From contig NZ_JAKNTW010000011.1 of NCBI RefSeq assembly GCF_022213955.1, forward strand, positions 124,001-188,000: a DNA stretch of 64,000 bases, given 5' to 3'. The position numbers and the translations under genes were made by a program. The notes under the pieces were generated by a model. The model saw only the letters and a program-made list of their open reading frames with translations. It did no database searches and was not told the DNA's origin. Below, in pieces: positions 50,617 through 56,551 of this stretch (position 1 is the first letter of the stretch; every line of letters starts with the position of its first letter). This DNA comes from Dolomitihabitans soli (GTDB taxonomy: Bacteria > Actinomycetota > Actinomycetes > Streptosporangiales > Streptosporangiaceae).

Positions 50617-51981
50617 TCATGCCACCTGGCAGGCGGCTCCGTTGAGGGTGTAGGAGGCGGGTTCGGTGGTGTTGCCGGTGTGCGTGGCCTGGAAGCCGAT
50701 GGTGGTGGAGCCGCCCGGGGCGAGGGTGCCGTTCCAGGCGGCGTTGGTGGCGGTGACCTGAGCGCTGGCCGGCGAGTACGACGCGCCCCAGCCGTTGGTG
50801 ATGGTCTGGCCACTGGGCAGGGTGAACACCAGCCGCCAGCCGTTGACCGTCGAGCTGCCGGTGTTGGTGATCGTGACGTTGCCGGTGAACCCGGTGTTCC
50901 AGGTGTTCATCGTGTACGCCACCCGGCACGCGCCGGTCGGCGGGGGCGTGCTGGTCGGGGTCACTGTCGAGGTCACGGTCGGGGTGGCGCCGCCGTAGAT
51001 GGTGGCCTCCCTGGCCGTGGCCTTGATGCCGTTGGCGCCGTTGAAGATCCGCTGACCCCAGGTGGTGAGCCGGCCGGGGTCGAAGGCGGTCGCCATGTCC
51101 AGGATCGGGTCGGTGTTGCCGCTCCAGGACCAGCCGAGGTAGCCGAGCCCTCGCGACACCGCCTCGGACAGCAGTGTCTCGTGGTCCACCTCGTTGGCGC
51201 CGAACCGCCAGCCGAACTCGCCGATGACCAGCGGCCAGCCGTTGGCCTGGAACCGGTTGAGGTAGTCGGTGATCGACGCGGCGGTGTTGAACACGGCGTA
51301 CATGTGGATGGACAGCACGGTGTTGCGCTTGGTGTCGGCGTTCAGGATCGTCTGGGCGTTGTCCCGCATGACGTACTGCCAGTCCTGGCCCCAGTTCGGC
51401 GCGTCGATCATGAGCAGGTGCTCGAAACCGTTGCTGCGCATCTTCTGGATGGCGGCGGTGGTCGCACTGGTCCACTGGGCGGCGTTGGTGTTGCCGATCG
51501 GCTCGTTGCCGATATTGATGACGACGTGGCTCTCCTGACCGACCAGCGCGCTCTTCTGGCTGATCCAGTAGTCGGCCGCCTCGTCGAGCGAGGCGGCCGC
51601 GCCCTCCTCGCCGTACCCGGTGGTGTCGTGCACCTCGAGGACGCAGATCAGCCGGTTCTGCCTGCACAGGGAGATCACATTGGCCACGTCGTTGGACGGA
51701 CCCCACCGCTTGCCGCTGCCCAGCACCACGCGCACGGTGTTGGCTCCGAGCGCCTTGATGTCGGCGAACGAGTTGGTCTGGTTCGTGTACCAGACGTGGG
51801 GGTGGTTGACCCCGCGCATGGTGAACTTCTGGCCGTTGGCCTCGACGATGTTCGTGCCGCTGATGTGGAGCCCCACGGCCGCATGCGCGGGCTGGATACC
51901 TGTGACCAGGACGGCTCCCAACGCCACGGCTACGGCGACGAGCGCCGCGCCGACCGCTGCCACCCATGGCATGGATCTCAT
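50617..51981 (-). CDS. secreted GH5_8 beta-mannanase with CBM2
   Basis: A 454-residue exported endo-beta-1,4-mannanase. The signal peptide ends QPAHAA near residue 35. The GH5 subfamily 8 barrel (about 36-320) opens VGLHISGTNIVEANGQKFTM and has RVVLGSGKRW, LEVHDTTGYGEE, acid/base E160 (INIGNEPIG) and nucleophile E255 (VIGEFGW). A T/P linker leads to a CBM2 cellulose-binding module (about 350-454) with flanking cysteines. It should cleave galactoglucomannan bound to cellulose. Lying back to back with the GH36 operon, it suggests a galactomannan pathway. GAGGAGATCCGAG precedes the ATG. Confidence 0.92.
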   Translation of the reverse strand: MRSMPWVAAVGAALVAVAVALGAVLVTGIQPAHAAVGLHISGTNIVEANGQKFTMRGVNHPHVWYTNQTNSFADIKALGANTVRVVLGSGKRWGPSNDVANVISLCRQNRLICVLEVHDTTGYGEEGAAASLDEAADYWISQKSALVGQESHVVINIGNEPIGNTNAAQWTSATTAAIQKMRSNGFEHLLMIDAPNWGQDWQYVMRDNAQTILNADTKRNTVLSIHMYAVFNTAASITDYLNRFQANGWPLVIGEFGWRFGANEVDHETLLSEAVSRGLGYLGWSWSGNTDPILDMATAFDPGRLTTWGQRIFNGANGIKATAREATIYGGATPTVTSTVTPTSTPPPTGACRVAYTMNTWNTGFTGNVTITNTGSSTVNGWRLVFTLPSGQTITNGWGASYSPASAQVTATNAAWNGTLAPGGSTTIGFQATHTGNTTEPASYTLNGAACQVA

Positions 51982-52297
51982 CTCGGATCTCCTCGTTGAT
52001 CTTTCGCAACGATCGGCACCACGTCGGCAAGTCGGAGCCGGCTGGAACGCCCCCAGAATGTACGCAGAGCCGCAGCATCCGTACAGCCACTACCGCACCA
52101 CCTGAACCGACCGGTCCAGTCCATTCATGGTCAAGGGGATGCTGAGCTGGCCGGATCCGGCTGGACCACTTCTCCGGCGGCTTCCCCAGGGCCCGTCTGA
52201 CGATGAAAATTCCACGCCGGACCGACTCCTTCGCCACCGGCGCGAAGATCGCCGAATTGGGGCGAAGTGTCGGTCTTCTGCGTTACGGTCGCGTGGC
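51982..52297. other. divergent promoter region without clear motifs
   Basis: These 316 bases hold the start regions of the mannanase (minus) and BRCT-propeller (plus) genes. No CebR/CelR-type box, other strong palindrome or convincing promoter was found. A longer open frame upstream of 52298 has no ribosome site. Confidence 0.45.
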
Positions 52298-55200
52298 ATG
52301 ATCATAAAAGGCAGCCAGATCGTGCTGGCCGGGCGGTTCAGCCGGCTTTCGAAGGATGCGGCCAAGCGCGGCTTGGAGGCGTTGGGCGCGAAGGTGACCG
52401 CGTCGGTCTCGGCGAAGACGGACCTGGTCTTCGCCGGGGCGAAGTCGGGGGCCAAGGCGGGTCCGGCGGCGGTGCGCGGCGTTCCGATCTACGACGAGGA
52501 CGCGCTGGCGGCCGTGCTCGAAGGCCGGGAGCCCGGCACTCCGCCGCCGCTGCCGCCGTTCACCGGCGTTCCGGACGAGCGGATGGGACCCGACGAGGCC
52601 CTCGACGCCCTCAAGAACGCCGACTGGTCCGCTTTCTCCCCGGATCGAGACACCGTGCCGCTGCGGGACGCCCTGCGGGAGTTGGAGCGCGCCCACGGCG
52701 TCACCGACGCGCATCGCCTCGCGACCGCCCGGCTCCGCGACGCGGGCGCGCTGCTCCGCCACTCCGATGTGCACCACGGCGGGCTGAACGGCCACGCGCT
52801 CAGCCCGGACGGGCGCCACTTCGCGGCCGGAAGCTGGACCGGCGACGACTACGACCGGGGCGGGGTTCTGCAGGTCTTCGAGGTCGCCACCGGCCGCTGC
52901 GTCCACGCGATCGACGGCATCATGGGCGGCGTCGGCTTCGAGGACTACGCGCGCAGCCTCCAGTGGTCGGCGGACGGCACGCGAATCGCGCTGGAGTACA
53001 ACACCAACGCGACCGGCGTGTGGGACCCGTTCGGCACCACCCACGAGCCGATCGCCGACGCGTTCTTCCTCGGCTCGGGCAGGCCGTTGGGCATGGCCCT
53101 CGCCCCCGACGGCAGGCGCGCGTTCGTCTACGGAGGCCAGTCGGACTTCATGCGCAACGTCATCGTGGCGATGCACGAGGGCTCGGTGGCCGGGCCGCCG
53201 GACGCCCAACCAGAGGGAACGGAGCCGATCGAGTTCAGCGGACCATCGCCGGACGAGCCCCGGGAAACCGGGAGCGACGAGCCCGAGTTCATCCTCAGCC
53301 GGGCGTTCTGGTCGCGCGACGGCTCCCGAGTCTACGGAGAGGCGAAGGACGAGTACGCGGCGATCTCGCTCGACGTGGAGAAACGGCGGGTCTCCTGGAT
53401 TCTGGGCCTGGAAGAGGACCAGGACGCGGCTCCGCCCGAATGGAGCCTGGACGAACGACTCCTGGCCCACCAGCGCGACGGAAAGCTCATCATCGCCGAC
53501 GCGCTGACGGGTGCGACGACGGCGGAGCTTCCCGGCTACCCGGGTGCCGACATCCTGTGCTGGGGGCCGGACGGTCGGCTGGCGGTGGTCGACCCGGCGG
53601 GCGGGACCGTCGGGATCATCGACGCGACGACCGGCGAGCACCGGCACGACCTGAGCATCCAGGCGGCCACCTCCAACCCGCGCGGCTGGGACGCCCGGTC
53701 GTGGGCCTGGTCGCCGGACGGCGAGCGGGCCGCCTGTGTAACCACCGAGGGGCGGATCGAGATCTGGTCGCTCGGTGAACGCCCCGAACGGCTGCGCGTC
53801 CTGGACGGCATCCGGCGCACGGTCGGCGACTGCCATCACGGCTTCGGCCTGGAATGGCCCGCCGACGACGTGCTGATCGCGATCGGCTCGCACGCGGTGC
53901 GCTTCCTGCGCCCCGAGACCGGCGAGATCGTGGCCGACCACCCCTTCCACCACACCCCGGCCGCCCGTCGCCCGCTCTTCTTCACCGGCCGTGACCTCGG
54001 CGACCGGCTCCGGCTCAACCCGACCTTCGCGCTGGACGAGGACACCTGGGCGGTGGCGTTCGAGGACGGCACGGTCATCGCGCGGCCCGGCCGGGACGAC
54101 GATCTCGACGGTCGGCTCTGCTGGTCCGTCGCCCGCCGCTTCGCCTGGCCGTTCCGCTGGGGCGACCAGAGAATCTTCGCCGACCCCGCCCACGCGGGAG
54201 TGGGGGCGGCGGCACCGGAGACCGAGCGGCTGCTGGCGCCGTTCCGGGGACGTGGCAGCACGGCAGAGGCGACGCTGACGTGGCCGCCACCCGACACCGC
54301 CACCGTCACCGACCTGATCACGGTGGTCCGGGGCACGCTCGTCGACCTGACCGTTCAGAACTCTGGCTACGACGAGTGGACCGTCGACACGCTCCAGCAA
54401 CTCGCGATGATCTGCGTACGGCGGAGCGAGGCCGCCGAAGCCCGCGAGCTGGCCCTGGCGATGCCGGAACACCGGCGACGTCGCGGACACCTCGCGCGGA
54501 TCGCGCTCGCGCTCGGCGCGGCCGGTTTCGACGCCGAAGCCGCCGCCGTCCTCCCCTACGCCGACGACGATCTCGCGGACGTGAGCAACGCGGCGGACAT
54601 GGCGGGGGACATGGCGGCGGTCGCCGGGGCCTGCGCGGTCCTGGGGCAGCGTGACCGCTCCGAGCGGTGGTTCGCCGCCGCTCGCGAGGCCGCCGACGCC
54701 CGCCGTACGGACTGGGAAGTGCGCCTGCCACTGGTCTGGGCGCTCACCGAGTGCGGCCGGGAGCGGGAGGCCCGCGTCGTGCTGGACGAGGGCGTGGGCA
54801 CGCCGAGGGGCCGGCACCACGGCGTGCCCTGGCTGGTCTGCCTGCTCAGACGGGGTGAAACCGAGCTGGTGCGCGAGCTGATCGGGGAGCGCAGCGAGCC
54901 GAACGACCCGGAGCAGCCGCACTCCTACGGCGTGCGCTGGTTCGACGACTGGACGGCGGCCCGCGCGCTCACCTTGTACGGCCAGCCGGACCTGCTCCGG
55001 CTGTGGGGCGAGATCAACTGGTCTTGGGTGCAGGACGACCTGCCGGTGGCCGAGCGGATCGCGGCCGAGGGCAGGCCGACCGGCCCGACCTACAACCAGT
55101 TGACCGATCTCGCCGCCCAGCACGCCGGGCTCGCGAAACTCCCCAAGGCGGCGAAGCGCCGCGAGTCCGCGCAGGTGGCCCGGGACGCGGCGGAGTGCGG

Positions 55201-55339
55201 CCACGTCAGCGCCGTGCTCGACCTGCTGCCCGGGACGGGCGAACCCGGCGAATACGGGCTGGACAGCAACACGCGCACCTGGGTCGCGTTCAGCGCCGTG
55301 CGGACCATCGCGATCGGTGTGGACGTCGACGTGTGGTGA
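52298..55339 (+). CDS. BRCT domain fused to beta-propeller and helical-repeat domains
   Basis: A 1013-residue soluble protein. Residues 1-75 match a BRCT domain of the NAD-dependent DNA ligase type: SQIVLAGRFSRLS, RGLEALGAKVTASVSAKT, DLVFAGAKSGAKA, GVPIYDEDALAAVL. From about 160 to 640 come repeated propeller blades with DGxR and W-D/W-S endings (WSADGTRIALEYN, APDGRRAFVYGG, WSPDGERAACVTTEGRIEIW). From about 690 to 1000 the chain is helical and TPR-like (ELALAMPEHRRRRGHLARIALALG and similar). ATG 52298 starts exactly at the BRCT strand. No signal peptide. A scaffold or DNA-end sensing role is possible; the function is unknown. Confidence 0.8.
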   Translation: MIIKGSQIVLAGRFSRLSKDAAKRGLEALGAKVTASVSAKTDLVFAGAKSGAKAGPAAVRGVPIYDEDALAAVLEGREPGTPPPLPPFTGVPDERMGPDEALDALKNADWSAFSPDRDTVPLRDALRELERAHGVTDAHRLATARLRDAGALLRHSDVHHGGLNGHALSPDGRHFAAGSWTGDDYDRGGVLQVFEVATGRCVHAIDGIMGGVGFEDYARSLQWSADGTRIALEYNTNATGVWDPFGTTHEPIADAFFLGSGRPLGMALAPDGRRAFVYGGQSDFMRNVIVAMHEGSVAGPPDAQPEGTEPIEFSGPSPDEPRETGSDEPEFILSRAFWSRDGSRVYGEAKDEYAAISLDVEKRRVSWILGLEEDQDAAPPEWSLDERLLAHQRDGKLIIADALTGATTAELPGYPGADILCWGPDGRLAVVDPAGGTVGIIDATTGEHRHDLSIQAATSNPRGWDARSWAWSPDGERAACVTTEGRIEIWSLGERPERLRVLDGIRRTVGDCHHGFGLEWPADDVLIAIGSHAVRFLRPETGEIVADHPFHHTPAARRPLFFTGRDLGDRLRLNPTFALDEDTWAVAFEDGTVIARPGRDDDLDGRLCWSVARRFAWPFRWGDQRIFADPAHAGVGAAAPETERLLAPFRGRGSTAEATLTWPPPDTATVTDLITVVRGTLVDLTVQNSGYDEWTVDTLQQLAMICVRRSEAAEARELALAMPEHRRRRGHLARIALALGAAGFDAEAAAVLPYADDDLADVSNAADMAGDMAAVAGACAVLGQRDRSERWFAAAREAADARRTDWEVRLPLVWALTECGREREARVVLDEGVGTPRGRHHGVPWLVCLLRRGETELVRELIGERSEPNDPEQPHSYGVRWFDDWTAARALTLYGQPDLLRLWGEINWSWVQDDLPVAERIAAEGRPTGPTYNQLTDLAAQHAGLAKLPKAAKRRESAQVARDAAECGHVSAVLDLLPGTGEPGEYGLDSNTRTWVAFSAVRTIAIGVDVDVW

Positions 55340-55465: not shown

Positions 55466-56551
55466 TCAGCTGAGCGTGCAGCTCGGTTGGGGTGGCGCGT
55501 TGGTCGTGTTGTTCCAGGTGGCGATGAAGCCGAAGGTGGTGGACGCACCGGCCGGCAGGCTGCCGTTGTAGGCGACGTTGCGTGCGGTGGCGGTGGCCGC
55601 GTTCTGGGTGAGTGTGGTGTTCCACGATTCGCGGACCTGCTGGCCGTTGGCGAAGGTGAAGGTCGTCGTCCAGGCGGAGGCCGCGCTTGGCGAGTCGTTC
55701 TTCACCGTGACCTCGCCCTGGAAGGAGCCGCCCCACTGGGAGATCACCCGGTAGGTGGCGGTGCACCGGCCGCCGGCGGGCGGCGGGGTCACGGACGGAG
55801 ACGGCGAGGGGCTGGGCGAGGTCGGCGGGATCACTCCGTCGAGCACCTTCTTGACGGACGGGTACCAGCGGTCGGCCATCTTCCGGAAGCCGGCGTCGTT
55901 GGGGTGCACCCCATCACCGGTGTCCGTGGCCGTGTTGAAGCCGGTCCACAGGTCCGCGACGACGATGGGCGACTGTGCGGTCGTGAGGCCGGCGGCCCAG
56001 GCCGGGATCGCGTTGTCGAGCGCCACCACGCTGGCCGCGCAGGTGGCGCAACCGGACGGATTCATGGGGATGATCTGCGCCACGATGATCTTCATGGTGG
56101 GATTGTGCGCTCGCATCTGGCCGACCAGCTTCGTGTAGGCGGCCAGGACGGTACTGGTGGGGATGAAGCCGCCCCACATGTCGTTGGTGCCCAGGTGCAT
56201 GAGGACGATGTCGGGCTTGGCCGCGTTCAGCCACGGCGGCAGCTGATTCTGGTCGGCGATGCCGGTGGCGGCGTAACCGCCGTGACCCTCGTTGTCGCCG
56301 TCGTAGGAGAACCCATAGTTGCAGCCGCCGTCGGGGTCGCTGCCGACGAAGTCGATATTCGTGTATCCGGTCGTCTGCAACTGGTTCCAGAGCAGGGCGC
56401 GCCAGCAGCCTGGTCCGGCGGTGATGGAGTCGCCGAGCGGCATGATGCGAACGGGCGCCGCCGCCGCCGACAGCGCGGGCAGAGCGGCCCCTAAGAAGAC
56501 CGCCGCGACTAACACGGCGAGTAAGGCGTACAGGTGGGATCCGCGAATCAT
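55466..56551 (-). CDS. secreted SGNH/GDSL esterase (CE3-like) with CBM2
   Basis: A 361-residue exported esterase. Signal peptide to about residue 32 (PALSAAAAP). The SGNH hydrolase domain (about 33-240) has block I GDSITAG with S42, block III GTND at 121-124, and block V DGVHPND with D213 and H216. A Pro/Ser linker joins a CBM2 module (about 263-361). This arrangement occurs in acetylxylan esterases of family CE3, so removal of acetyl groups from hemicellulose on cellulose fibres is likely. A perfect CebR/CelR box lies 88 bases upstream. Confidence 0.9.
   Translation of the reverse strand: MIRGSHLYALLAVLVAAVFLGAALPALSAAAAPVRIMPLGDSITAGPGCWRALLWNQLQTTGYTNIDFVGSDPDGGCNYGFSYDGDNEGHGGYAATGIADQNQLPPWLNAAKPDIVLMHLGTNDMWGGFIPTSTVLAAYTKLVGQMRAHNPTMKIIVAQIIPMNPSGCATCAASVVALDNAIPAWAAGLTTAQSPIVVADLWTGFNTATDTGDGVHPNDAGFRKMADRWYPSVKKVLDGVIPPTSPSPSPSPSVTPPPAGGRCTATYRVISQWGGSFQGEVTVKNDSPSAASAWTTTFTFANGQQVRESWNTTLTQNAATATARNVAYNGSLPAGASTTFGFIATWNNTTNAPPQPSCTLS

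Follow-up and report, generated by a model that had tools for sequence, protein, structure and literature searches.

What is a BRCT domain doing at the head of a large bacterial protein that is not a ligase? Bacterial BRCT domains are mostly regarded as a ligase appendage, and BRCT scaffolds organise damage signalling in eukaryotes. The question is raised by one gene in a 64,000-nt stretch of the Dolomitihabitans soli genome (the window), whose intact open reading frame at 52298–55339 of the forward strand encodes 1,013 aa plus a stop and has orthologues at 77–89%. An in-frame ATG at 52127 would give a longer frame; across eight orthologue loci, however, conservation breaks off about 37–40 bp before 52298 and identity is at background level further upstream, so we place the start at 52298. 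This start coincides with the first BRCT strand, and the abrupt end of upstream conservation upholds the argument of a first-pass annotation, made from the DNA letters, against a fusion created by a mis-called start. The gene is flanked by two reverse-strand genes for secreted-looking proteins (50617–51981 and 55466–56551), which by eye look like a cellulase and an SGNH hydrolase carrying CBM2-like tails.

The N-terminal domain (aa 4–67; 52307–52498, forward strand) is a BRCT of LigA type, and three libraries agree that the first ~70 residues of the 1,013-residue protein belong to it, as had been claimed. PF00533 matches aa 4–67 with 22.6 bits against a Pfam cut-off of 21.3, NCBIfam LigA models cover aa 3–73 with up to 55.1 bits, and the PDB sequence matches are the BRCTs of LigA and RFC1. 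In a genome-wide scan this BRCT scored 28.3 bits, the weakest of three matches, the remaining two being frames of LigA length; the BRCTs of an orthologue (L021) and of a Polyangium relative (L024) reached 27.8 and 33.9 bits. The C-terminal BRCT of LigA is the nearest sequence match (55 bits to the LigA model), but the protein itself is not LigA, since it carries no adenylation, OB or zinc-finger domain and its BRCT stands at the opposite end. The RFC1 BRCT, also present as a single copy, falls into the same sequence class (27.8 bits) and is reported to bind, in isolation, DNA with a recessed 5'-phosphate (PMC9293004). RFC1, however, is an AAA+ clamp loader, whereas the window protein lacks an AAA+ domain and its DNA binding is only putative.

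The middle of the protein (aa 158–541; 52769–53920, forward strand) is a WD40-type β-propeller, and the earlier description of it as propeller-like held up in both profile search and structure prediction. PF12894 (ANAPC4_WD40) scores 35.3 bits against a cut-off of 22.9, PF00400 remains below its cut-off (17.0 against 27), and the strands of the AF2 model align (VIA-align) to WD40 propellers, best to 5nnz_A with Z 25.6 and an rmsd of 3.4 over 319 residues. The AF2 models were built from few sequences (6 and 5) and have a low mean pLDDT (51.3 for the propeller model, 66 for the tail), so that of their assignments we rely on the propeller alone. The C-terminal region (aa 662–1013; 54281–55336, forward strand) is predicted to be all-helical, with about 18 helices and helical hairpins; its best structural match reaches Z 11.8, to unrelated folds and at a level common for helical models, and no TPR family profile matched the window protein. 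Of the TPR-like end first proposed, the helical character therefore stands, and TPR is at most a candidate class. No enzyme domain appeared among the Pfam and NCBIfam matches, again as first noted. Prokaryotic WD40 proteins share the propeller fold, and a plasmid relative carries the NCBI name 'WD40 repeat domain-containing protein', but here the propeller is fused to a BRCT and a helical tail and lies behind a damage-type promoter.

The first-pass annotation had treated this as a single odd protein, whereas a taxonomic survey revealed a family spanning two phyla. Relatives at E <= 1e-30, some of them without a BRCT, occur in 33 of 341 Streptosporangiaceae genomes, the organism's own included, and at E <= 1e-20 in 10 of 144 genomes of Polyangium's order; none of 395 other Actinomycetota genomes held a relative at E <= 1e-30 in a phylum-wide search that scored two candidates per genome and could miss distant members. 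Named relatives include Nonomuraea indica, N. basaltis, N. gerenzanensis, Actinomadura alba, Polyangium, and plasmids of Embleya and Streptomyces chartreusis. A literature search of titles and abstract starts, with subscription papers outside its scope, found no description of a BRCT-propeller-helical architecture; the domains and the promoter type are each known, and it is their combination as a cross-phylum family behind a damage-type promoter that was not found in print. Two further kinds of BRCT fusion were seen in Polyangium genomes. One in G545 joins a BRCT to pentapeptide repeats (L065:1–2391; Pfam), and a similar frame of G546 (L067) has a BRCT that matches; the other is a DEDD exonuclease (RNase_T) with a C-terminal BRCT (L083:391–1743, G545), a 451-aa BRCT frame being present in G546 as well.

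In the window's clade, the gene and its promoter occupy many unrelated genomic sites. Among 55 pairs drawn from 11 genomes, only G779 and G764 share both flanks, at 92%, which indicates that the comparison does detect synteny where it is present; three pairs share 132–176 bp upstream, and the others have no more than 56 bp in common upstream and lack any long shared stretch next to the stop codon. Divergence of the gene is also incongruent with that of LigA: between G000 and four genomes the gene product is 81–89% identical and LigA 71–73%, and among G013, G091 and G140 the order is reversed (78–80% and 84–89%). Taken together, these observations argue for a horizontally mobile gene, and horizontal transfer within the clade would be their direct reading, though gene conversion that overwrote older copies may offer an alternative. 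As for a vehicle, the longest terminal-repeat matches at the ends of shared blocks equalled the null, no relative was found among viral contigs or phages, and the search for an empty site identified no matching locus flanked by a clear orthologue of the 3' neighbour. A fixed tRNA integration site was rejected: only L022 has a tRNA-His close to the gene, and none was found in the window or in L101–L106. Whole-gene dN/dS of 0.45–0.66 (five pairs) points to purifying but relaxed selection, and truncated copies (L011, L012, L022) suggest that the gene is dispensable in some strains.

Such behaviour invites another explanation, in which a mobile protein serves conflict or surveillance, for example as an anti-phage or anti-plasmid sensor. 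Its propeller-helical core would do the work, DNA damage would switch it on as a proxy for invasion, and the BRCT would be an optional localiser. The patchy spread, the many unrelated sites, the incongruence with LigA, the relaxed selection, the truncated copies and the repeated loss of the BRCT would all suit this explanation. We nevertheless consider it unlikely, given that the window gene has no PADLOC match, that the Pfam and NCBIfam scans gave no effector domain and that no conserved neighbour gene was seen around the family loci; the viral-contig, phage and PADLOC searches neither helped nor excluded other roles.

The state of the BRCT itself bears on what the protein might bind. Phosphate-binding BRCTs carry a Thr/Ser-Gly after strand 1 and a Lys at the start of helix 2. 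Both elements are retained in LigA and in the Myxococcota members. In the window BRCT, by contrast with LigA, the pocket reads VLAG, with the Thr replaced by Ala and the Lys kept. Its clade shares this Ala-Gly with Lys; the corresponding pair is Phe-Gly in Embleya, the Thr gives way to Tyr or Phe in g19-type members, and L115 retains Thr. Since the pocket Thr is Ala in the window's clade, phosphate-dependent binding by this BRCT is doubtful, though it may dock in some other way. Among other relatives, the BRCT exceeds the Pfam cut-off in L115, L123, L091, L095 and L110 and falls slightly below it in L017 (20.8); L053 gives no Pfam BRCT match, yet its N-terminus aligns. A tree of 45 core sequences, whose long branches leave the deep joins unsure, requires six changes of BRCT label, and because the domain is present in both phyla the simplest reading would be an ancestral BRCT that was lost repeatedly. 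One BRCT-less row (L128) has in-frame stops and a broken 5' end, so the true losses may number five. In L016 and L121 the N-terminus retains only MIISGK/MIIAGN, which looks like an in-frame deletion of the domain. At L113 (G757), a frame-broken BRCT fragment lies ~80 bp past the stop of a BRCT-less sister gene, downstream of 4074, and is followed by what by eye is an IS30-like peptide.

The altered pocket and the repeated losses suggest that the BRCT may be dispensable. Taken further, they could mean that it is vestigial and that the protein works in a cytoplasmic assembly that has nothing to do with DNA, damage being one of several inputs; in actinobacterial BRCTs other than that of L115 the Thr has become Ala, Tyr or Phe, there are relatives without a BRCT that retain the full core, and L016 and L121 have the short N-terminal remnants. 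This stronger version seems quite improbable, however, as the domain is complete in all 12 main-clade alignment rows that hold the core, its dN/dS stays below 1 (0.36–0.79), and it is retained in Myxococcota.

What ties the gene to DNA damage is the sequence before its start codon, where a RecA-NDp/PafBC-type promoter match, TGTCGGTC-N8-TACGGT (52268–52289, forward strand), ends 8 bp before the ATG in the arrangement gTGTCGGTc-N8-TACGGT-8 bp-ATG. The LexA/RecA-independent damage promoter is given as tTGTCRgtg-8 nt-TAnnnT (PMC5656591) and also as TGTCGG-10N-TA-3N-T (PMC8151990). The core TGTCRGT-N9-TAnnnT is matched exactly, while of the outer consensus letters the initial t is G here and the final g is C, and the window holds no other exact site; the resulting transcript would be leaderless. 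A survey of 38 family loci (36 distinct, L107 being identical to L023 and L111 to L022) found the promoter in all 13 distinct close orthologues, always 8 bp before the start, exact in 11 and with one mismatch in L006 and L112. Mean pairwise identity per 10-bp bin in eight orthologue loci is 0.68–0.88 over −40 to −1 against 0.23–0.42 further upstream, and upstream of about −56 the close orthologues have mostly unrelated DNA. It is highly improbable that the match is accidental and the gene free of damage control: a consensus match is all that is seen and exact ones occur in 0.6% of random 336-nt windows, but the fixed spacing persists in every one of these orthologues amid mostly unrelated flanks, with the R of the consensus occurring as both G and A.

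Outside the window's clade, where it is fixed, the promoter is scattered. It is exact in one of nine divergent BRCT members (L115) and one of 14 BRCT-less members (L054), has one mismatch in BRCT-less L116 and L119, and has two mismatches with the 8-bp spacing kept in five further BRCT-less members (L118, L120, L121, L016 and L018); random windows (n=3000, from a pool that includes loci holding the gene) gave one mismatch in 1.0% and two in 4.8%. The promoter is thus a trait of part of the family and is not tied to the BRCT, a BRCT-specific promoter being rejected by the exact site of L054 and by the several divergent BRCT members that lack the motif. The L054 relative, on the S. chartreusis plasmid (L054:3926–5936), has TTGTCAGTG-N8-TAGGGT upstream; it is annotated as two overlapping genes, probably one frameshifted gene. 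A LexA-type box, GAACNNNNGTTC with at most one mismatch, was also considered and rejected, as none lies near the start and the window's total of 17 compares with 18.5 expected.

Across the 10.8-Mb genome, TGTCRGTN9TANNNT occurs at 27 sites against 5 for a reversed control. Besides the site in the window there are 26, of which L043 has no open reading frame and L045 starts with the frame of L033 and was left out, giving 24 frames for Pfam scanning. Eight of these encode repair or recombination proteins: RecA (L035), LigA (L050), RecD2 (L033), an AlkZ-like protein (L032), an RNase_T/GIY-YIG protein (L037), a ResIII/DEAD helicase (L044) and two PD-(D/E)XK proteins (L028, L052). The ligA gene of the same genome thus resembles the window gene in having the motif upstream. 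The others are two WYL regulators (L026, L038), an integrase (L047), seven otherwise named genes and six without a Pfam match; with 16 of the 24 sites before genes not recognisably involved in repair, some sites are presumably chance occurrences. The genome encodes PafC (HTH_PafC, 138.6 bits; L097), and by eye a PafB-like frame adjoins it. L033 and L045 (contigs C14 and C39) place the motif before a seemingly identical RecD2 frame and may be two copies or an assembly duplicate. Another WD40-like propeller protein of this genome (L041:1565–2590) bears a weak similarity to the propeller of the window protein and has the motif 42 bp upstream. There is precedent for the approach: in S. coelicolor, a RecA-NDp promoter is reported to have pointed to SCO6735 as a UV-inducible gene (PMC5087735), and the function of that macrodomain protein, unrelated in sequence to ours, was proposed from its conserved promoter.

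The guess of a DNA-damage link in the first-pass annotation thus gains independent support from the conserved promoter, from which we predict induction; the gene is probably damage-regulated. If so, its product is likely to work as a scaffold in repair or in damage signalling. Overall, we favour, with a probability of roughly 0.6, a PafBC-induced, non-enzymatic damage-response scaffold. On this reading, DNA damage would activate PafBC, PafBC–RNA polymerase would start transcription at the RecA-NDp element, and the leaderless mRNA would yield a large non-enzymatic protein. The N-terminal BRCT would then dock it on a DNA end, a nick or a repair partner, while the propeller and helical tail would hold further proteins, making it an inducible scaffold or adaptor.

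A bolder and rather speculative extension is that adaptor and promoter form a mobile one-gene damage-response module that plugs into the damage regulon of any actinobacterial host, in the manner of a BRCT-bearing checkpoint mediator. If true, such a module would serve bacteria with complex life cycles, among them the Streptosporangiaceae and relatives of Polyangium. A non-enzymatic BRCT adaptor that is linked to a damage promoter, is conserved in two phyla and moves between genomes would, if confirmed, provide an entry point to the scaffolding of bacterial DNA repair, and the PafBC-type promoter renders its suspected role in the damage response directly testable.
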